From Candidatus Dormiibacterota bacterium (GTDB taxonomy: Bacteria; Chloroflexota; Dormibacteria; Aeolococcales; Bog-877), in assembly GCA_027306885.1 (NCBI GenBank), contig DAHUYV010000041.1, forward strand, positions 1 to 54,328: a stretch of DNA of 54,328 nt. Reading direction: 5' to 3'. Both the position numbers and the translations under genes were made by a program. Positions 41,467-48,318 of the stretch are shown one piece after another. The stretch's first letter is position 1. Every line of letters begins with the position of its first letter. The notes beneath the pieces were generated by a model. It had not been told where the DNA came from, searched no databases, and worked only from the letters and a program-made list of their open reading frames with translations.

Positions 41467-41540
41467 GGCGACTTAGCCAAGTGGTAAGGCAGCGGTCTGC
41501 AAAACCGCGATCCCGGGTTCAATTCCCGGAGTCGCCTCCA
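41467..41540 (+). tRNA. tRNA-Cys (anticodon GCA), CCA encoded
   Basis: GGCGACT/AGTCGCC acceptor, GCGGT-CTGCAAA-ACCGC anticodon arm, CCGGG-TTCAATT-CCCGG T-arm, discriminator T then CCA. Confidence 0.95.
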
Positions 41541-41626
41541 GCAGATTTGAGATCAGGAAGGCCCATCTGGGGCTCTGGTCAGCATGTGTTTTCCGGTCAT
41601 GACAGCTACCTTGACAGCAACGTGGC

Positions 41627-42784
41627 TCAGCGACTGCCCACCGAGTCACCATCATCCTTCGGTCCCAGGAGCTCCTCGATGGCCCGGGCCGCCTCTTGGT
41701 GCATCGCCTCGGTGCTGTGCGAGTAGAGATCGAGGGTGATCCCCACCGTGGCATGGCCGAGCAGATCGGCTGCCACCTTCGGGTGGACCCCTTGGCTGAG
41801 CATCAGCGTCGCCGCCGTGTGCCGGAGGTCGTGGAAGCGGATTCGGGGAAGGCCGGCTCGAACCAGCAGGGGGTCGAAATTGCGTTTCACCACGTGGTCA
41901 CGCTGGAGGGGCCCGCCCACCACGTTGGTGAACACCAGGTCGGACTCCCGCCACTGGTCTCCGGCCATCTCTCGCTCATGCCTCTGCGCCCTCCGGTGCT
42001 GCTGGAGGGCGGAGACAGCGATGGGTGTAAGGATTACCTGGCGGCGCGATCGAAGGGTCTTCGGCTCGGTGATCGTGAGGCCGGCTCCCCGAATCCGCTG
42101 GAGGCTGCAGGTCACGGCCAGCCTCCCTGTGTCAAGATCCACCTCTCGCCAGTGGAGTCCCAACAGTTCGCCTTGGCGCATGCCCGTGGTCACCGCGAGC
42201 ACCCACACCGCCTCGAGGCGGTCCCCGCGTGCCGTCGCCAGCAGGTTGCGAACTTGTGCTGGGCTGAAGGTCTGCATCTCATGGCGCACCATCCGTGGTG
42301 GGTCAACCAACGCCGCTGGGTTCCGGGCGATGACTCCCCACCGCTCAGCCTGGGCTAATGCCCTGTGAAGGACCGCGTGGAGGTGACTCACGGTGGTGGG
42401 GGACAGCCCCTTCTGGAGGGCTTCTGTAAAGCAGAGCTGGATACGTTCAGGGCCGAGTTGGGCGACCTGGACCCGCCCGAGTGTGGGTAGCGCATGGAGG
42501 CGGATGAGTTCCTCATAACGTTGCCAGGTTCGAGGCCGAAGCTGGGGCCTGACGGTTTCCAGCCATTCCAGGAGATAGGCCTGGGTGGTCCCCGCCAAGC
42601 GGGGAGCACGGTCCCCGTGATCTTGAGACTGGAGCAGTTCTCGAAGCTTGCGAGAGGCCTCCGTTCGGGTCCGGGTATATCGGAACTGGCGGCGGCCATT
42701 GGGCCAAGCGACCTGGGCGACCCAGCGTCCGTCGGACCGCTGGTAGACCGAGCCTTCCCCGTTGGCACGCTTGTGACCAGGCAT
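41627..42784 (-). CDS. Tyrosine recombinase / integrase
   Basis: 'TTGMRQGELLGLHWREVDL', 'HDLRHTAATLMLSQGVHPKVAADLLGHATVGITLDLYSH'; N-terminal 'GSVYQRSDGRWVAQV' arm domain. Confidence 0.96.
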   Translation of the reverse strand: MPGHKRANGEGSVYQRSDGRWVAQVAWPNGRRQFRYTRTRTEASRKLRELLQSQDHGDRAPRLAGTTQAYLLEWLETVRPQLRPRTWQRYEELIRLHALPTLGRVQVAQLGPERIQLCFTEALQKGLSPTTVSHLHAVLHRALAQAERWGVIARNPAALVDPPRMVRHEMQTFSPAQVRNLLATARGDRLEAVWVLAVTTGMRQGELLGLHWREVDLDTGRLAVTCSLQRIRGAGLTITEPKTLRSRRQVILTPIAVSALQQHRRAQRHEREMAGDQWRESDLVFTNVVGGPLQRDHVVKRNFDPLLVRAGLPRIRFHDLRHTAATLMLSQGVHPKVAADLLGHATVGITLDLYSHSTEAMHQEAARAIEELLGPKDDGDSVGSR

Positions 42785-42929
42785 CCTCAAGAGAGTAGAT
42801 CACAGATGCGGCCGTGCGGCCGTGCGGCCCGCAGCCCACAAGGTCGACCGGCATGGCACCACAGCCAGCGGCGACGTCGTCAGCCGATCGATGGCGCTTC
42901 GTGTACCCATCAGAATCGAGATCGCATGG

Positions 42930-43320
42930 CGGCAGCGGTGGCTACATCACCGGCTGCGCCGAGGTCCTCAAGCCGCGGTGGCCAGGACTCAAGGTCTACG
43001 CGGTGGAGCCGACACTCTCCCCGGTCCTCTCCGGCGGGACTCACGGGAACCACCCGATTTAGGTGTGAGGGGCGGGCTTCATCCCGGGAGTCATGCGCCC
43101 GGACCTGCCGGACCGAATCATCCAGGTGGCCCCGGAGGACGCCTTCGCCTACGCCGAGCGGTCAGCGCGCGAGGAGGGAATCCTGGTCGGGGTCTCGTCC
43201 GGCGCGTCGCTGACCGCTGTCGCCTCGCTGGTGCCGGAGATGGCTGATGGCGTCCGGGTCCTCACCTTCGCCTACGACAGTGCCGAGCGATACCTCCCGG
43301 TCGAGGCCCTGGTTGGGTGA
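42930..43320 (+). pseudogene. Cysteine synthase C-terminal fragment with two in-frame stops
   Basis: '[54 protein letters not shown]...EDAFAYAERSAREEGILVGVSSGASLTAVASL...DSAERYL' in one frame. Confidence 0.88.
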
Positions 43321-43912: not shown

Positions 43913-44113
43913 GACCGCAGCCCCCCATTCACCGCCCACCCGACCTTCCCCGGCGCGCCATGTCGGTGGCCGCCGAGCCCTGGCGCCATGCCCGCGGCAT
44001 CGCCACCGGCAGTCACCGCGAACTCCTGCTTCGATCACCTGATCGTCCTCGTCCGACGGCCGCCCAGGACCCGGTTGCGAGCTACACCGGCACGGTAGTA
44101 TCATCCAAAGATC

Positions 44114-44815
44114 GTGCGACCATTAGCTCATATCTGTCAGGCGCCCGACGACCTGGAACGATCCCTCTACGAGCAGTACGCGCGCGTGGCCAGGGCGATG
44201 GCGCACCCTGGCCGCGTCGCCCTGCTGGATGTCCTGTGCCAGGCGGAGCGCGGGGTCGAGGATCTTGCCTCCACGGTGGGCATGGGCTTCAAGAACACCT
44301 CGGCCCAGTTGCGGGAGCTGCGATTGGCGGGGCTGGTGGAGGCCCGGCGGCAGGGCACCCACGTCTACTACCGCGTCGCGGATGAGTCGGTGTACGGCTT
44401 CCTCGCCGGCTTGCGGCAGCTGGCTCGCCGTCGCTTGGCCGAGGTGGACCGGCTGGTCCGAGACTGGATCGAGCCGACCGGCGGCCCGGAGCCGGTGCGC
44501 CGGGCGGAATTGCTGGAGCGCCTGGCAAGGGAGGAGGTGGTCGTGTTCGACGTGCGCCCGCGGGAGGAATACCGGGCCGGCCACATCCCCGGTGCCCGCT
44601 ATGTGCCCCTGGAGGAGCTCGACGCCGGGTTGGCCGGGCTGCCGGACGATGTGGAGGTGGTGGCCTACTGCCGTGGTCCGTTCTGCGTCCTGGCGCCGGA
44701 GGCGGTCAGGGCGTGCCGAGCGCGCGGGCGGCGCGCCAGACAGCTGGAGGACGGTTTCCCAGAGTGGCGCTCGGCTGGACTCCCGGTCGCCATCGGCGCG
44801 GAGGCGGCGGCGTGA
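44114..44815 (+). CDS. ArsR-family HTH regulator fused to rhodanese domain
   Basis: HTH 'MAHPGRVALLDVLCQAERGVEDLASTVGMGFKNTSAQLRELRLAGLVEARRQGTHVYYRV'; rhodanese 'VVVFDVRPREEYRAGHIPGARYVPLEEL', loop 'YCRGPFCVLAPEAV'. Confidence 0.94.
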   Translation: MRPLAHICQAPDDLERSLYEQYARVARAMAHPGRVALLDVLCQAERGVEDLASTVGMGFKNTSAQLRELRLAGLVEARRQGTHVYYRVADESVYGFLAGLRQLARRRLAEVDRLVRDWIEPTGGPEPVRRAELLERLAREEVVVFDVRPREEYRAGHIPGARYVPLEELDAGLAGLPDDVEVVAYCRGPFCVLAPEAVRACRARGRRARQLEDGFPEWRSAGLPVAIGAEAAA

Positions 44816-45165
44816 CCCGGGTGCTGGTGATCTTGAACGATCCCCCATACGGGAGTGAGCGGTCCTGGAACGGACTTCGACTGGCCGGGGAGCTCGCCCG
44901 CACGGAAGGAGTCGAGGTCAAGGTCTTCTGTTTCGGCGACGCCGTCGGTTGCGCGGTGGCCGGGCAGGTGGTCCCCGACGGCTGGTACCACCTCGACCGA
45001 ATGGTCACGGGGATACTCCACCACGGCTCCGAGGTGGGCTGTTGCGGGACCTGCATGGATGCCCGGGCGGTTGGCGCGGATGCGCTGGTCGAGGGGGTCT
45101 GTCGGGCGACCCTGAAGGAGGCGTCCGAGTGGGTGATCTGGGCCGACAGAGTCGTCACCTTCTGA
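44812..45165 (+). CDS. DsrE-family sulfur-relay-like protein
   Basis: 'VLVILNDPPYGSERSWNGLRLA', 'VKVFCFGDAVGCAVAGQ', 'VGCCGTCMDARAVGADALVEG'; GTGA overlap with previous gene. Confidence 0.88.
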   Translation: MTRVLVILNDPPYGSERSWNGLRLAGELARTEGVEVKVFCFGDAVGCAVAGQVVPDGWYHLDRMVTGILHHGSEVGCCGTCMDARAVGADALVEGVCRATLKEASEWVIWADRVVTF

Positions 45166-45223
45166 TGACCGCGGTTCCCTCCGGGCACCCTCCGAAGGCC
45201 TCAAGCGGTCGCAGGCGGGCGTA

Positions 45224-46438
45224 GTGGCAGTCCGGGTTCTGATCCTGGGCGGGTCGTTCGGAGGCCTCACCGCTGCCCGCGAGTTGCGGCGGCGACTGGG
45301 GCCGGAGCGGGTGGAGATCACCCTCATCGCCCGCGACCCGCGCTTCACCTTCATCCCCTCGCTTCCTTGGGTTGCGCTTGGGTCCCGCACCCTGGACCAG
45401 ATCTCCTTCGACCTTGCCAGACCACTACTGGCGGAGCAGAGCACGTTCGCTCACGAGACAGTGCTAGGCATCGATGGCGATCGCAAGGTTGTGTCCACCG
45501 ACCGGGCCGAGCACGCCTACGACTTCTTGGTGGTGGCCACCGGACACCGCAGCGCCAACGAGGCTGTGCCCGGTCTTGGCCCCGGCGACGGCCCCGGTCA
45601 CTCCCCCATGTCCCCACCAGAGACCGAGGAGTTGGCGGCGGCGGTGCGCGGACTCCTGGAGAACCCCGGGCCGGTCGTGGTCGGGGCGGCGCCCGGCGCC
45701 AGCTGCATCGGGCCCGCCTACGAGCTCGCCTTCGGGCTGGACCACCTGCTGCGGCGCCGGAGGCTGCGCCACCTGGTCCCGATCACGTTCGTCACCCCGG
45801 AGCCTTTCCTCGGACACCTCGGCATGGGCGGCGCCGGCAAGATCCGTCAGCTGCTGGAAGGCGCGCTGGAGGAGCGGGACATCGCGTACCGCACCTCCAG
45901 CGCGATCACCAGGATCTCCGCGGCTGCGGTCGAAGTCGAGGGAGTCGGTCCGATCCCCTCGGTCGTCTCGATCGTGATCCCACCCCTCGGAGGGGTGGCT
46001 GCGGTGGCCAGCAGCCCCGGACTGGCAAACCCCAAAGGGTTCGTGGCCGTGGATTCCCTCTACCGCCACCCGCGCCTCGACGGCGTCTACGCGGTGGGAG
46101 TGGCAGTGGCCATGGCGCCCGCCGACGAGACCACCGTTCCGGTCAACTTCCCCAAGACGGGCCACATGACCGAGCAGATGGCGGTGATCGCCGCCCGGGA
46201 CATCGTGGCCCGGGTGGGCGGCCGTGACGGCAAGCCCGCCGAGCTGTCCTCCCACTGTGTCATGGACATGGGCGATCGCGGCGTCTACATGGCAGTCGAC
46301 CCGGTGCGCCCTCCCCGGAACCGGATCCCGGCCGTCAGTGAGGGACGCCGCTGGCGGCTGGTCAAGCTCGGCTTCGAGCGTGCCTACCTCTGGTCCGCCC
46401 GCCACGGTCATCGCCTGCCGACCGCCCTCGGCTGGTGA
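45224..46438 (+). CDS. FAD-dependent oxidoreductase, sulfide:quinone oxidoreductase-like
   Basis: 'VLILGGSFGGLTAARELRRRLG', 'VVVGAAPGASCIGPAYELAFGLD', 'HCVMDMGDRGVYMAVDP', 'FPKTGHMTEQMA'. Confidence 0.88.
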   Translation: MAVRVLILGGSFGGLTAARELRRRLGPERVEITLIARDPRFTFIPSLPWVALGSRTLDQISFDLARPLLAEQSTFAHETVLGIDGDRKVVSTDRAEHAYDFLVVATGHRSANEAVPGLGPGDGPGHSPMSPPETEELAAAVRGLLENPGPVVVGAAPGASCIGPAYELAFGLDHLLRRRRLRHLVPITFVTPEPFLGHLGMGGAGKIRQLLEGALEERDIAYRTSSAITRISAAAVEVEGVGPIPSVVSIVIPPLGGVAAVASSPGLANPKGFVAVDSLYRHPRLDGVYAVGVAVAMAPADETTVPVNFPKTGHMTEQMAVIAARDIVARVGGRDGKPAELSSHCVMDMGDRGVYMAVDPVRPPRNRIPAVSEGRRWRLVKLGFERAYLWSARHGHRLPTALGW

Positions 46439-46592
46439 AGCCAGCGCCCCCCCGGTCACTCGCCATGCTTGAGATGACCGCCCCGGCTGATCCTCCTGGG
46501 GGCAGAGGGGTCCGCGTCCCTCGAGCCGCTGGTGGGCGCTCGGAGCCGCGGCGCAGGGTTGGCGGCCGCTGGGGATCGGGAGCAGAAGGCAG

Positions 46593-47936
46593 TTGAGTTC
46601 CGCCACCTCGCCCGGTTCGCTGGTTCCGTTGGCTCAAGGCGCCACGGTCCACGGCCTTCGCCGGAACTTGGTTCAGTTGAGCCTGCTGGCCCTGCTCACC
46701 CTGTTGGTCGGCGCCACCATGGGGGTGGAGCGGGTGGCGCTGCCGCCGCTGGCCCAGCACGCGTTCGGGGTCACCTCGGTTCTCTACACCGTGTCCTTCA
46801 TCTCCGCTTTCGGGGTCGTGAAGGCCACCATGAACCTCGTCTCCGGGCGGATGTCTGACCGCCGCGGCCGCAGGCTGCTGCTCCTGGCGGGCTGGGCCTT
46901 CGCCGTCCCCTATGCGTTGCTCATCATCTTCGCCCAGAACTGGGCGTGGGTCGTGGTGGCCAACCTGTTCCTCGGGGTCAACCAGGCGCTCACCTGGACC
47001 ATGGCGGTGACCTCCATGATCGACCTGGTCGGCCCGGTGAACCGGGGGATCGCGGTGGGGATCAACGAAGCGGCCGGGTACGTCGGGGTCGGCGCCGGAG
47101 GCTTCGCCGCCGGGGTTCTGGTGACGTCATTCGGGCTGCGGCCGGCCCCTTACGTCCTCGCCTTGGCGGTGGTCGTCCTGGGAGCCACCCTGACGGTCTG
47201 GCCGACTCGGGAGACCCTGGGCTTCGCCCGGGCGGAGGGGGCCGCGGCCTTAGGGGAGCCCAACCAAGGGGTGGGCTCGGCACCGGCACCCGGACTGGGA
47301 ACGCTGGCCGCATACATGAGCTGGCGGGATCGCACCATGGCAGCGGTCTGCCTCGGGGGCTTCCTCAACAAGTTCGTTGACAGCCTGGTGATCGGCTTCT
47401 TCCCCCTGTACTTCCTGCAGCAGGGCCTCTCCCTGCTCCAGGTCGGCCTGCTGGTCGGTGTGTACGCCTGGGTCTGGGGCCTGGGGCAGGTCGCCACCGG
47501 GGCCCTCGCCGACCGCGTGGGCCGGCGGATCCCGATCTTGTCGGGGATCTGCGCGGTTGGGGTCGGGGTGCTGCTGACCCAGTTCACCTCCGGCCTTGGA
47601 CCGTGGGTGGCGGATGCGGCCGTCATCGGAGCCGGCATGGCACTCGTCTATCCCAACTTCATCACGGCTGTGGGCGACGTGGCCGACCCCACCTGGCGTG
47701 GCGGCGCGCTCGGGGTCTACCGCCTGTGGCGCGACGGTGGCTACGCGGTCGGGCCGCTGGTCCTGGGCGGCGTGGCCGAGGTCTTCGGCCTCTCCGCCAC
47801 CTTCTGGACCAGCGCCGGGCTGATGGGCGTTTCCGGCGTGCTGGTGATGATATTCATGACAGAGACACATCCGCGCCGTCGTCCAGAGCCGCCTCTCTGG
47901 GAGCGGCACCCAGAGAGGATAGGCGGACGACAGTGA
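46593..47936 (+). CDS. MFS transporter
   Basis: ~12 TM; 'MSDRRGRRLLLLAGWAF', 'ALADRVGRRIPILSGI'; exact start uncertain. Confidence 0.9.
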   Translation: MSSATSPGSLVPLAQGATVHGLRRNLVQLSLLALLTLLVGATMGVERVALPPLAQHAFGVTSVLYTVSFISAFGVVKATMNLVSGRMSDRRGRRLLLLAGWAFAVPYALLIIFAQNWAWVVVANLFLGVNQALTWTMAVTSMIDLVGPVNRGIAVGINEAAGYVGVGAGGFAAGVLVTSFGLRPAPYVLALAVVVLGATLTVWPTRETLGFARAEGAAALGEPNQGVGSAPAPGLGTLAAYMSWRDRTMAAVCLGGFLNKFVDSLVIGFFPLYFLQQGLSLLQVGLLVGVYAWVWGLGQVATGALADRVGRRIPILSGICAVGVGVLLTQFTSGLGPWVADAAVIGAGMALVYPNFITAVGDVADPTWRGGALGVYRLWRDGGYAVGPLVLGGVAEVFGLSATFWTSAGLMGVSGVLVMIFMTETHPRRRPEPPLWERHPERIGGRQ

Positions 47937-48117
47937 CCCTCGGGGATCCCCTCGACACGAAGGCGGGAGGTCCCTGCTGCGCGCTCCGGCAGTGCAGGCG
48001 AGCGCTGCATCCGCCGTAGGCCTCCCCCGAGGCAACGTAGAGAACCAGCCGCCAATCGAGTGGCCGGTAGTCGCGATACGAGCGCGAAACATGTGTAACG
48101 AACTGAGGAGAGCGATC

Positions 48118-48318
48118 ATGAAGTGTATGCCCGATGCCGAGGCCGGCATCGACAAGGACGCCGTGGCCACCTGCCATGATTGCGGTGCGGGCGTGTGCCT
48201 CGAGCACGCGGTGCAACGCCAGATAACGGAGCCACCGGTCGGCATGGCTGGATCAGGACGGTCGCACATGGTGATCTTGTGCCCAACCTGCCATTCAGCG
48301 TGGCCACTCCCCGAGTAG
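48118..48318 (+). CDS. Small zinc-finger-like protein (DUF2180-like)
   Basis: 'MKCMPDAEAGIDKDAVATCHDCGAGVCLEHAV...ILCPTCHSAW'; RBS 'gaggaga'. Confidence 0.7.
   Translation: MKCMPDAEAGIDKDAVATCHDCGAGVCLEHAVQRQITEPPVGMAGSGRSHMVILCPTCHSAWPLPE

Follow-up and report, generated by a model that had tools for sequence, protein, structure and literature searches.

An ArsR-rhodanese fusion heads a putative autoregulated sulfide-oxidation and persulfide-handling operon in a Dormibacteria-like genome

Five open reading frames on the + strand of the DNA analysed here (54,328 nucleotides; "the window") lie inside positions 44,114-48,318 and probably constitute an autoregulated operon for sulfide oxidation and persulfide handling, in which the regulator would act as a derepressing persulfide sensor. 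The window is a contig (G000:C84) of a 2.26-Mb draft, a Dormibacteria-like metagenome-assembled genome (MAG), and its closest named relatives include a Candidatus Dormiibacterota MAG (L004). The coordinates and order of the genes were as originally predicted, and Pfam assigned HTH_5 plus Rhodanese, DsrE, Pyr_redox_2, MFS_1 and DUF2180 to the five products, each above its curated cut-off. Also as predicted, the first two genes overlap, by 4 bp (GTGA, 44,812-44,815), and the motifs CRGPFC, CCGTC, GASCIGPAYE and HCVMDMGD are all present. The gaps that follow are 58 bp between the DsrE and sulfide:quinone oxidoreductase (SQR) genes, 154 bp between SQR and the MFS gene, and 154 bp between MFS and DUF2180 if the longer possible start of the latter is used.

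In the mechanism that we propose, H2S would be oxidised by SQR, with electrons passing to quinone and formation of sulfane sulfur, which the YchN-type DsrE protein would most likely take up and relay. When sulfane sulfur was abundant, C186 in the CRGPFC loop of the regulator would acquire a persulfide and then form a bridge with C191, the residue that stands where the last residue of a usual rhodanese loop would be. The bridged rhodanese domain would change shape, the ArsR repressor would be released from an operator that overlaps its own promoter, and expression of the operon would follow. Through the sulfur-carrying enzyme domain fused to it, the repressor can probably detect what the SQR under its control produces. 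A self-regulated, persulfide-handling module had been the original prediction, and it is still the best reading: the SQR is nearest to those of A. ferrooxidans and Aquifex, with both redox cysteines and H198 invariant, its association with the regulator and DsrE is kept in several phyla with two SQR types, and the other recurrent neighbours are sulfur genes, while conserved cysteines and gene context point to sensing.

The oxidoreductase (45,224-46,438, + strand; 404 residues) is, by sequence, an SQR. It matched the A. ferrooxidans and Aquifex SQRs over the whole length (E ~1e-70), aligned with SQR at 241 bits across residues 3-395, and gave E values of 1e-23 with the A. ambivalens enzyme and 1e-13 with flavocytochrome c. 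An NDH-2 identity was ruled out on scores, the match being confined to N-terminal residues 5-118 (46 bits, ~1e-11). Two cysteines had been predicted at the SQR redox positions, and we found that C161 (45,704-45,706) and C345 (46,256-46,258), the equivalents of C160 and C356 in the type I SQR of A. ferrooxidans (3T31, 3SZ0), are invariant in 18/18 sequences, as is H198. The third classical SQR cysteine is, however, absent. Where A. ferrooxidans SQR has C128, which functions in product release, His132, whose role has also been described (PMC6335251), and Phe357, alignment places Met, Glu and Val in the window's enzyme, and these replacements count against the module reading. Because C161 and C345 are kept while the positions of C128 and His132 hold Met and Glu, the aligned residues indicate a two-cysteine SQR that is nearest to type I without having every active-site feature of that type.

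The gene preceding SQR (44,812-45,165, + strand; 117 residues) encodes, as expected, a DsrE-family protein with a CCGTC motif. It is of the type of E. coli YchN (1JX7; E = 1.3e-17), with which it shares its length and a conserved Cys-x2-Cys region, although YchN is a stand-alone protein, whereas the DsrE gene in the window overlaps that of the regulator. Within CGTC, C78 (45,043-45,045) and C81 (45,052-45,054) are both invariant in 35/35 relatives. Assignment to the TusD/DsrE subunit of the DsrEFH/TusBCD complex was rejected, the NCBIfam equivalog model giving 17.5 bits where its cut-off is 89.

The regulator (44,114-44,815, + strand; 233 residues) contains a winged helix (residues 11-118) followed by a rhodanese domain (128-228), the fusion that the original prediction had described. 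A single-sequence AlphaFold model was poor (pLDDT 39) and was discarded, but AF2 supplied with 59 aligned relatives gave a confident two-domain model (pLDDT 91.9, pTM 0.85). Foldseek searches of the PDB with the regulator returned matches to single domains only (the Mb0332 fragment 1-100, SmtB, SqrR at 26-28% identity and single rhodaneses) and no two-domain ArsR-rhodanese structure. Membership of the rhodanese family was indicated by Pfam (2.5e-15) and by alignment of C186 (44,669-44,671) with the loop cysteine of 3TP9; since CRTGGR in 3TP9 is matched to CRGPFC, the second cysteine, C191 (44,684-44,686), takes the place of the terminal loop arginine.

Across 85 regulators, both cysteines of the CRGPxC loop are invariant, whereas C8 and C42 of the ArsR domain are not conserved, C42 being replaced by Ala in 63 of the 85. 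For this reason the sensor pair appears to be located in the rhodanese active site, unlike that of SqrR and BigR, with C186 the presumed persulfide acceptor and C191 its partner. Membership of the SqrR/BigR family itself was ruled out by the cysteine positions, there being no conserved pair within the ArsR domain. We would give about an even chance that the CRGPxC ArsR-rhodaneses form a separate class of persulfide sensors, in which a sulfurtransferase active site serves as receiver and a resolving cysteine has arisen at the sixth position of the loop. Such a class would have its own operator, ATTC-N12-GAAT with variants in some lineages, and its regulon, present in many phyla, would cover sulfide oxidation, sulfur transfer and sulfite export.

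The ArsR region also matches HTH_metalloreg, and RefSeq names the relatives of the regulator only "metalloregulator", as might be expected of a metal sensor or of a general redox sensor that responded to thiol oxidation through a simple C186-C191 disulfide, which a Cys-x4-Cys loop could form, the sulfur genes being one of several outputs. Some ArsR-rhodanese copies without nearby sulfur genes would also fit such a sensor. We nevertheless regard it as unlikely: the invariant columns of the regulator alignment include no metal-binding Cys or His from the ArsR domain, the domain fused to it belongs to the rhodaneses, which are persulfide carriers, and the neighbours are mostly sulfur-transfer and sulfur-oxidation genes. 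Still less probable is that the rhodanese domain acts as an enzyme and not as a sensor, which would make the fusion a bifunctional sulfurtransferase and constitutive regulator with C191 required solely to pass sulfur to DsrE; the overlap of the two genes, the rhodanese-DsrE-TusA relays established in sulfur oxidisers (PMC6335251) and two TusA genes located away from the cluster in the window's genome would suit this, but the fusion to a DNA-binding domain, needless for a pure enzyme, is kept in 85/85 relatives across many phyla, and many ArsR-rhodanese copies have no DsrE nearby.

The linkage on which the persulfide-sensor reading draws was examined in two samples. A search of 79 non-redundant ArsR-rhodanese loci, up to 5 kb from the regulator, found DsrE homologues in 33, SQR in 16, the window's MFS subfamily in 17 and both DsrE and SQR in 14. 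Flanking DNA further from the regulator at the same loci (473 kb) had none of the cluster homologues at E<1e-10, so that the clustering goes beyond chance. The best 30 ArsR-rhodanese loci from 400 same-phylum genomes, with flanks of 1.5 kb only, contained SQR in 15 cases, DsrE in 16 and MFS in 10. Conservation of gene neighbourhood had been proposed as a check on the original prediction, and these families do co-occur widely across phyla. The triad of ArsR-rhodanese, YchN-type DsrE and SQR recurs in Chloroflexota, Actinomycetota and Nitrospirota in the same order, often with the same 4-bp overlap between the first two genes, and in these comparisons it is the conserved core. The SQRs linked to the regulator are of two types, type I-like (as in the window) and type III-like (L009, L049), and the association was not a single ancestral event, because the regulator tree forces at least five changes in SQR linkage.

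A second regulator-DsrE-SQR triad lies on another contig of the same genome (C7; L083, 40-2866), with an SQR 84% and a regulator 80% identical to those of the window. Both triads are intact, but in the second copy the MFS gene has decayed, having lost an internal segment and acquired a stop. The MFS protein is therefore not essential to the module, an observation that goes against the five-gene reading and again marks the triad as the core. Of the module originally proposed, the first three genes stand as a conserved unit, while MFS (46,593-47,936, + strand) and DUF2180 (48,118-48,318, + strand), which encodes a small cysteine-rich protein of 66 residues (Pfam 2.8e-10), are only accessory to it. 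The MFS protein had only weak matches in the PDB, to drug and amine transporters; its gene linkage makes a sulfur compound or product its probable cargo. Loci of two flavours were seen, regulator-DsrE-SQR and regulator-MFS, and the window appears to have merged the two. In two loci (L105, L107) both flavours stand side by side with separate regulators and with DUF2180, which is also found beside the cluster in L106.

Other recurrent neighbours were TauE sulfite exporters, metallo-beta-lactamases (MBL), VTT-rhodaneses, Cys/Met PLP enzymes, DsrE2, TusA and DsrC. TauE was sought in the window's own genome and not found, and homologues of persulfide-dioxygenase-like MBL there were weak only. In some genomes the fusion adjoins non-sulfur genes, which also weighs against the module reading. 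At eight loci (L030, L041, L043, L046, L058, L069, L070, L075) a fatty acid hydroxylase/sterol desaturase gene adjoins ArsR-rhodanese and is preceded by ATTC-N12-GAAT. At four others (L037, L045, L071, L074) a Cys/Met PLP enzyme and a class II glutamine amidotransferase, joined in three of the four by a class V aminotransferase, lie beside ArsR-rhodanese and TauE, possibly representing an undescribed sulfur-compound pathway.

In 1.33 Mb of related loci, ATTC-N12-GAAT occurred 47 times, compared with 6-19 copies (about 12) for every other spacing between 2 and 21, although these counts are not fully independent because some of the loci are close relatives. ATTC-N8-GAAT, the form reported for SqrR sites (PMC9774250), was at background (13 copies). 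Many copies of the N12 motif precede ArsR-rhodanese, TauE, fatty acid hydroxylase, MBL and DsrE genes, and it is a likely operator around the window's relatives. Among the relatives that have it is the cultivable Paraburkholderia podalyriae (L048). The motif had no match anywhere in the window, where we found a weak candidate operator dyad, TCATCCAAAGATCGTGCGACCA (44,101-44,122, + strand), which overlaps a promoter-like region and the GTG start and was aligned with stronger dyads of relatives. It has 5/10 pairs, with up to 6/10 at other centres. Both the missing motif and the weak dyad are points against the module reading. Dyads of Dormibacteria relatives reach 7/10 (L103, L104), and in Actinomycetota there are strong dyads with a GATC centre near the gene start (9/10 in L008, 8/10 in L014). 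Dyad symmetry upstream of the regulator exceeds that upstream of other genes (Mann-Whitney p=0.006), and several Dormibacteria promoters look leaderless, with TAATCT and 7 nt followed by GTG. Since the window's own dyad is weak and those of its relatives are stronger, it is from the latter that we infer autoregulation in the window.

Directly upstream of the cluster (42,814-43,320, + strand) lies a relic of cysK (cysteine synthase), in which two pieces match positions 172-214 and 229-295 with two stops between them, and the N-terminal half is missing. Further upstream (41,467-42,790), a tRNA-Cys(GCA) gene is followed by a tyrosine integrase of the phage type, which lies on the opposite strand (41,627-42,790), an arrangement suggesting that the sulfur cluster adjoins an old site of integration. 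Because of this arrangement we considered whether a mobile element carried the cluster, but set the idea aside: elsewhere in the window no repeat of the tRNA region exceeds 13 bp, and the triads in L102 and L103 have no recognised adjoining integrase.

Beyond the original prediction, the analysis identifies the triad as the core, points to the cysteine pair of the rhodanese loop as the probable sensor and reports the N12 site of the relatives. The persulfide-sensing ArsR repressors that we found in the open-access literature have their sensing cysteines in the DNA-binding domain; in the same literature we found no ArsR-rhodanese persulfide sensor, no experiment on the family of the window's regulator and no description of the regulator-DsrE-SQR gene set. 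If the proposal is right, there is a widespread family with a fused sulfurtransferase as sensor, in which a sulfur-trafficking enzyme reports its own loading state to a promoter. The CRGPxC tag and the candidate operator could then be used to predict sulfide-responsive regulons in Dormibacteria and other uncultivated lineages, whose genes of this kind currently bear the label "metalloregulator".

The best structural match of the N-terminal domain of the regulator is Mb0332 of M. bovis (3GW2/2KKO; 41-44% identity), whose structure covers fragment 1-100 only. We take Mb0332 to be the orthologue of M. tuberculosis Rv0324, presumably an ArsR-rhodanese fusion too. Rv0324, taken here as the nearest studied relative, comes up in the literature in connection with tolerance to bedaquiline rather than with sulfur sensing (PMC9480834). 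The rhd-tusA-dsrE clusters of Acidithiobacillus (PMC6335251) likewise place rhodanese and DsrE families with sulfur oxidation genes, but their partner is Hdr, whereas in the window it is SQR, the rhodanese is fused to ArsR, the DsrE is YchN-type and TusA is encoded elsewhere in the genome.

The closest parallels in regulation are SqrR, BigR, SoxR, sHdrR and YgaV, sulfane-sulfur-responsive ArsR repressors with two cysteines in the ArsR domain that are linked to sqr, pdo, rhd and transport genes (PMC10451225; PMC12423496). With these the window's regulator shares the ArsR repressor fold, a two-cysteine logic and the company of sqr, rhodanese, DsrE, PDO and TauE-type genes, and its relatives share ATTC/GAAT half-sites with SqrR-type repressors. 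It differs in its low identity to SqrR, in the N12 rather than N8 operator spacing of its relatives, and in the placing of its cysteine pair, which lies in the C-terminal rhodanese loop instead of the ArsR domain.
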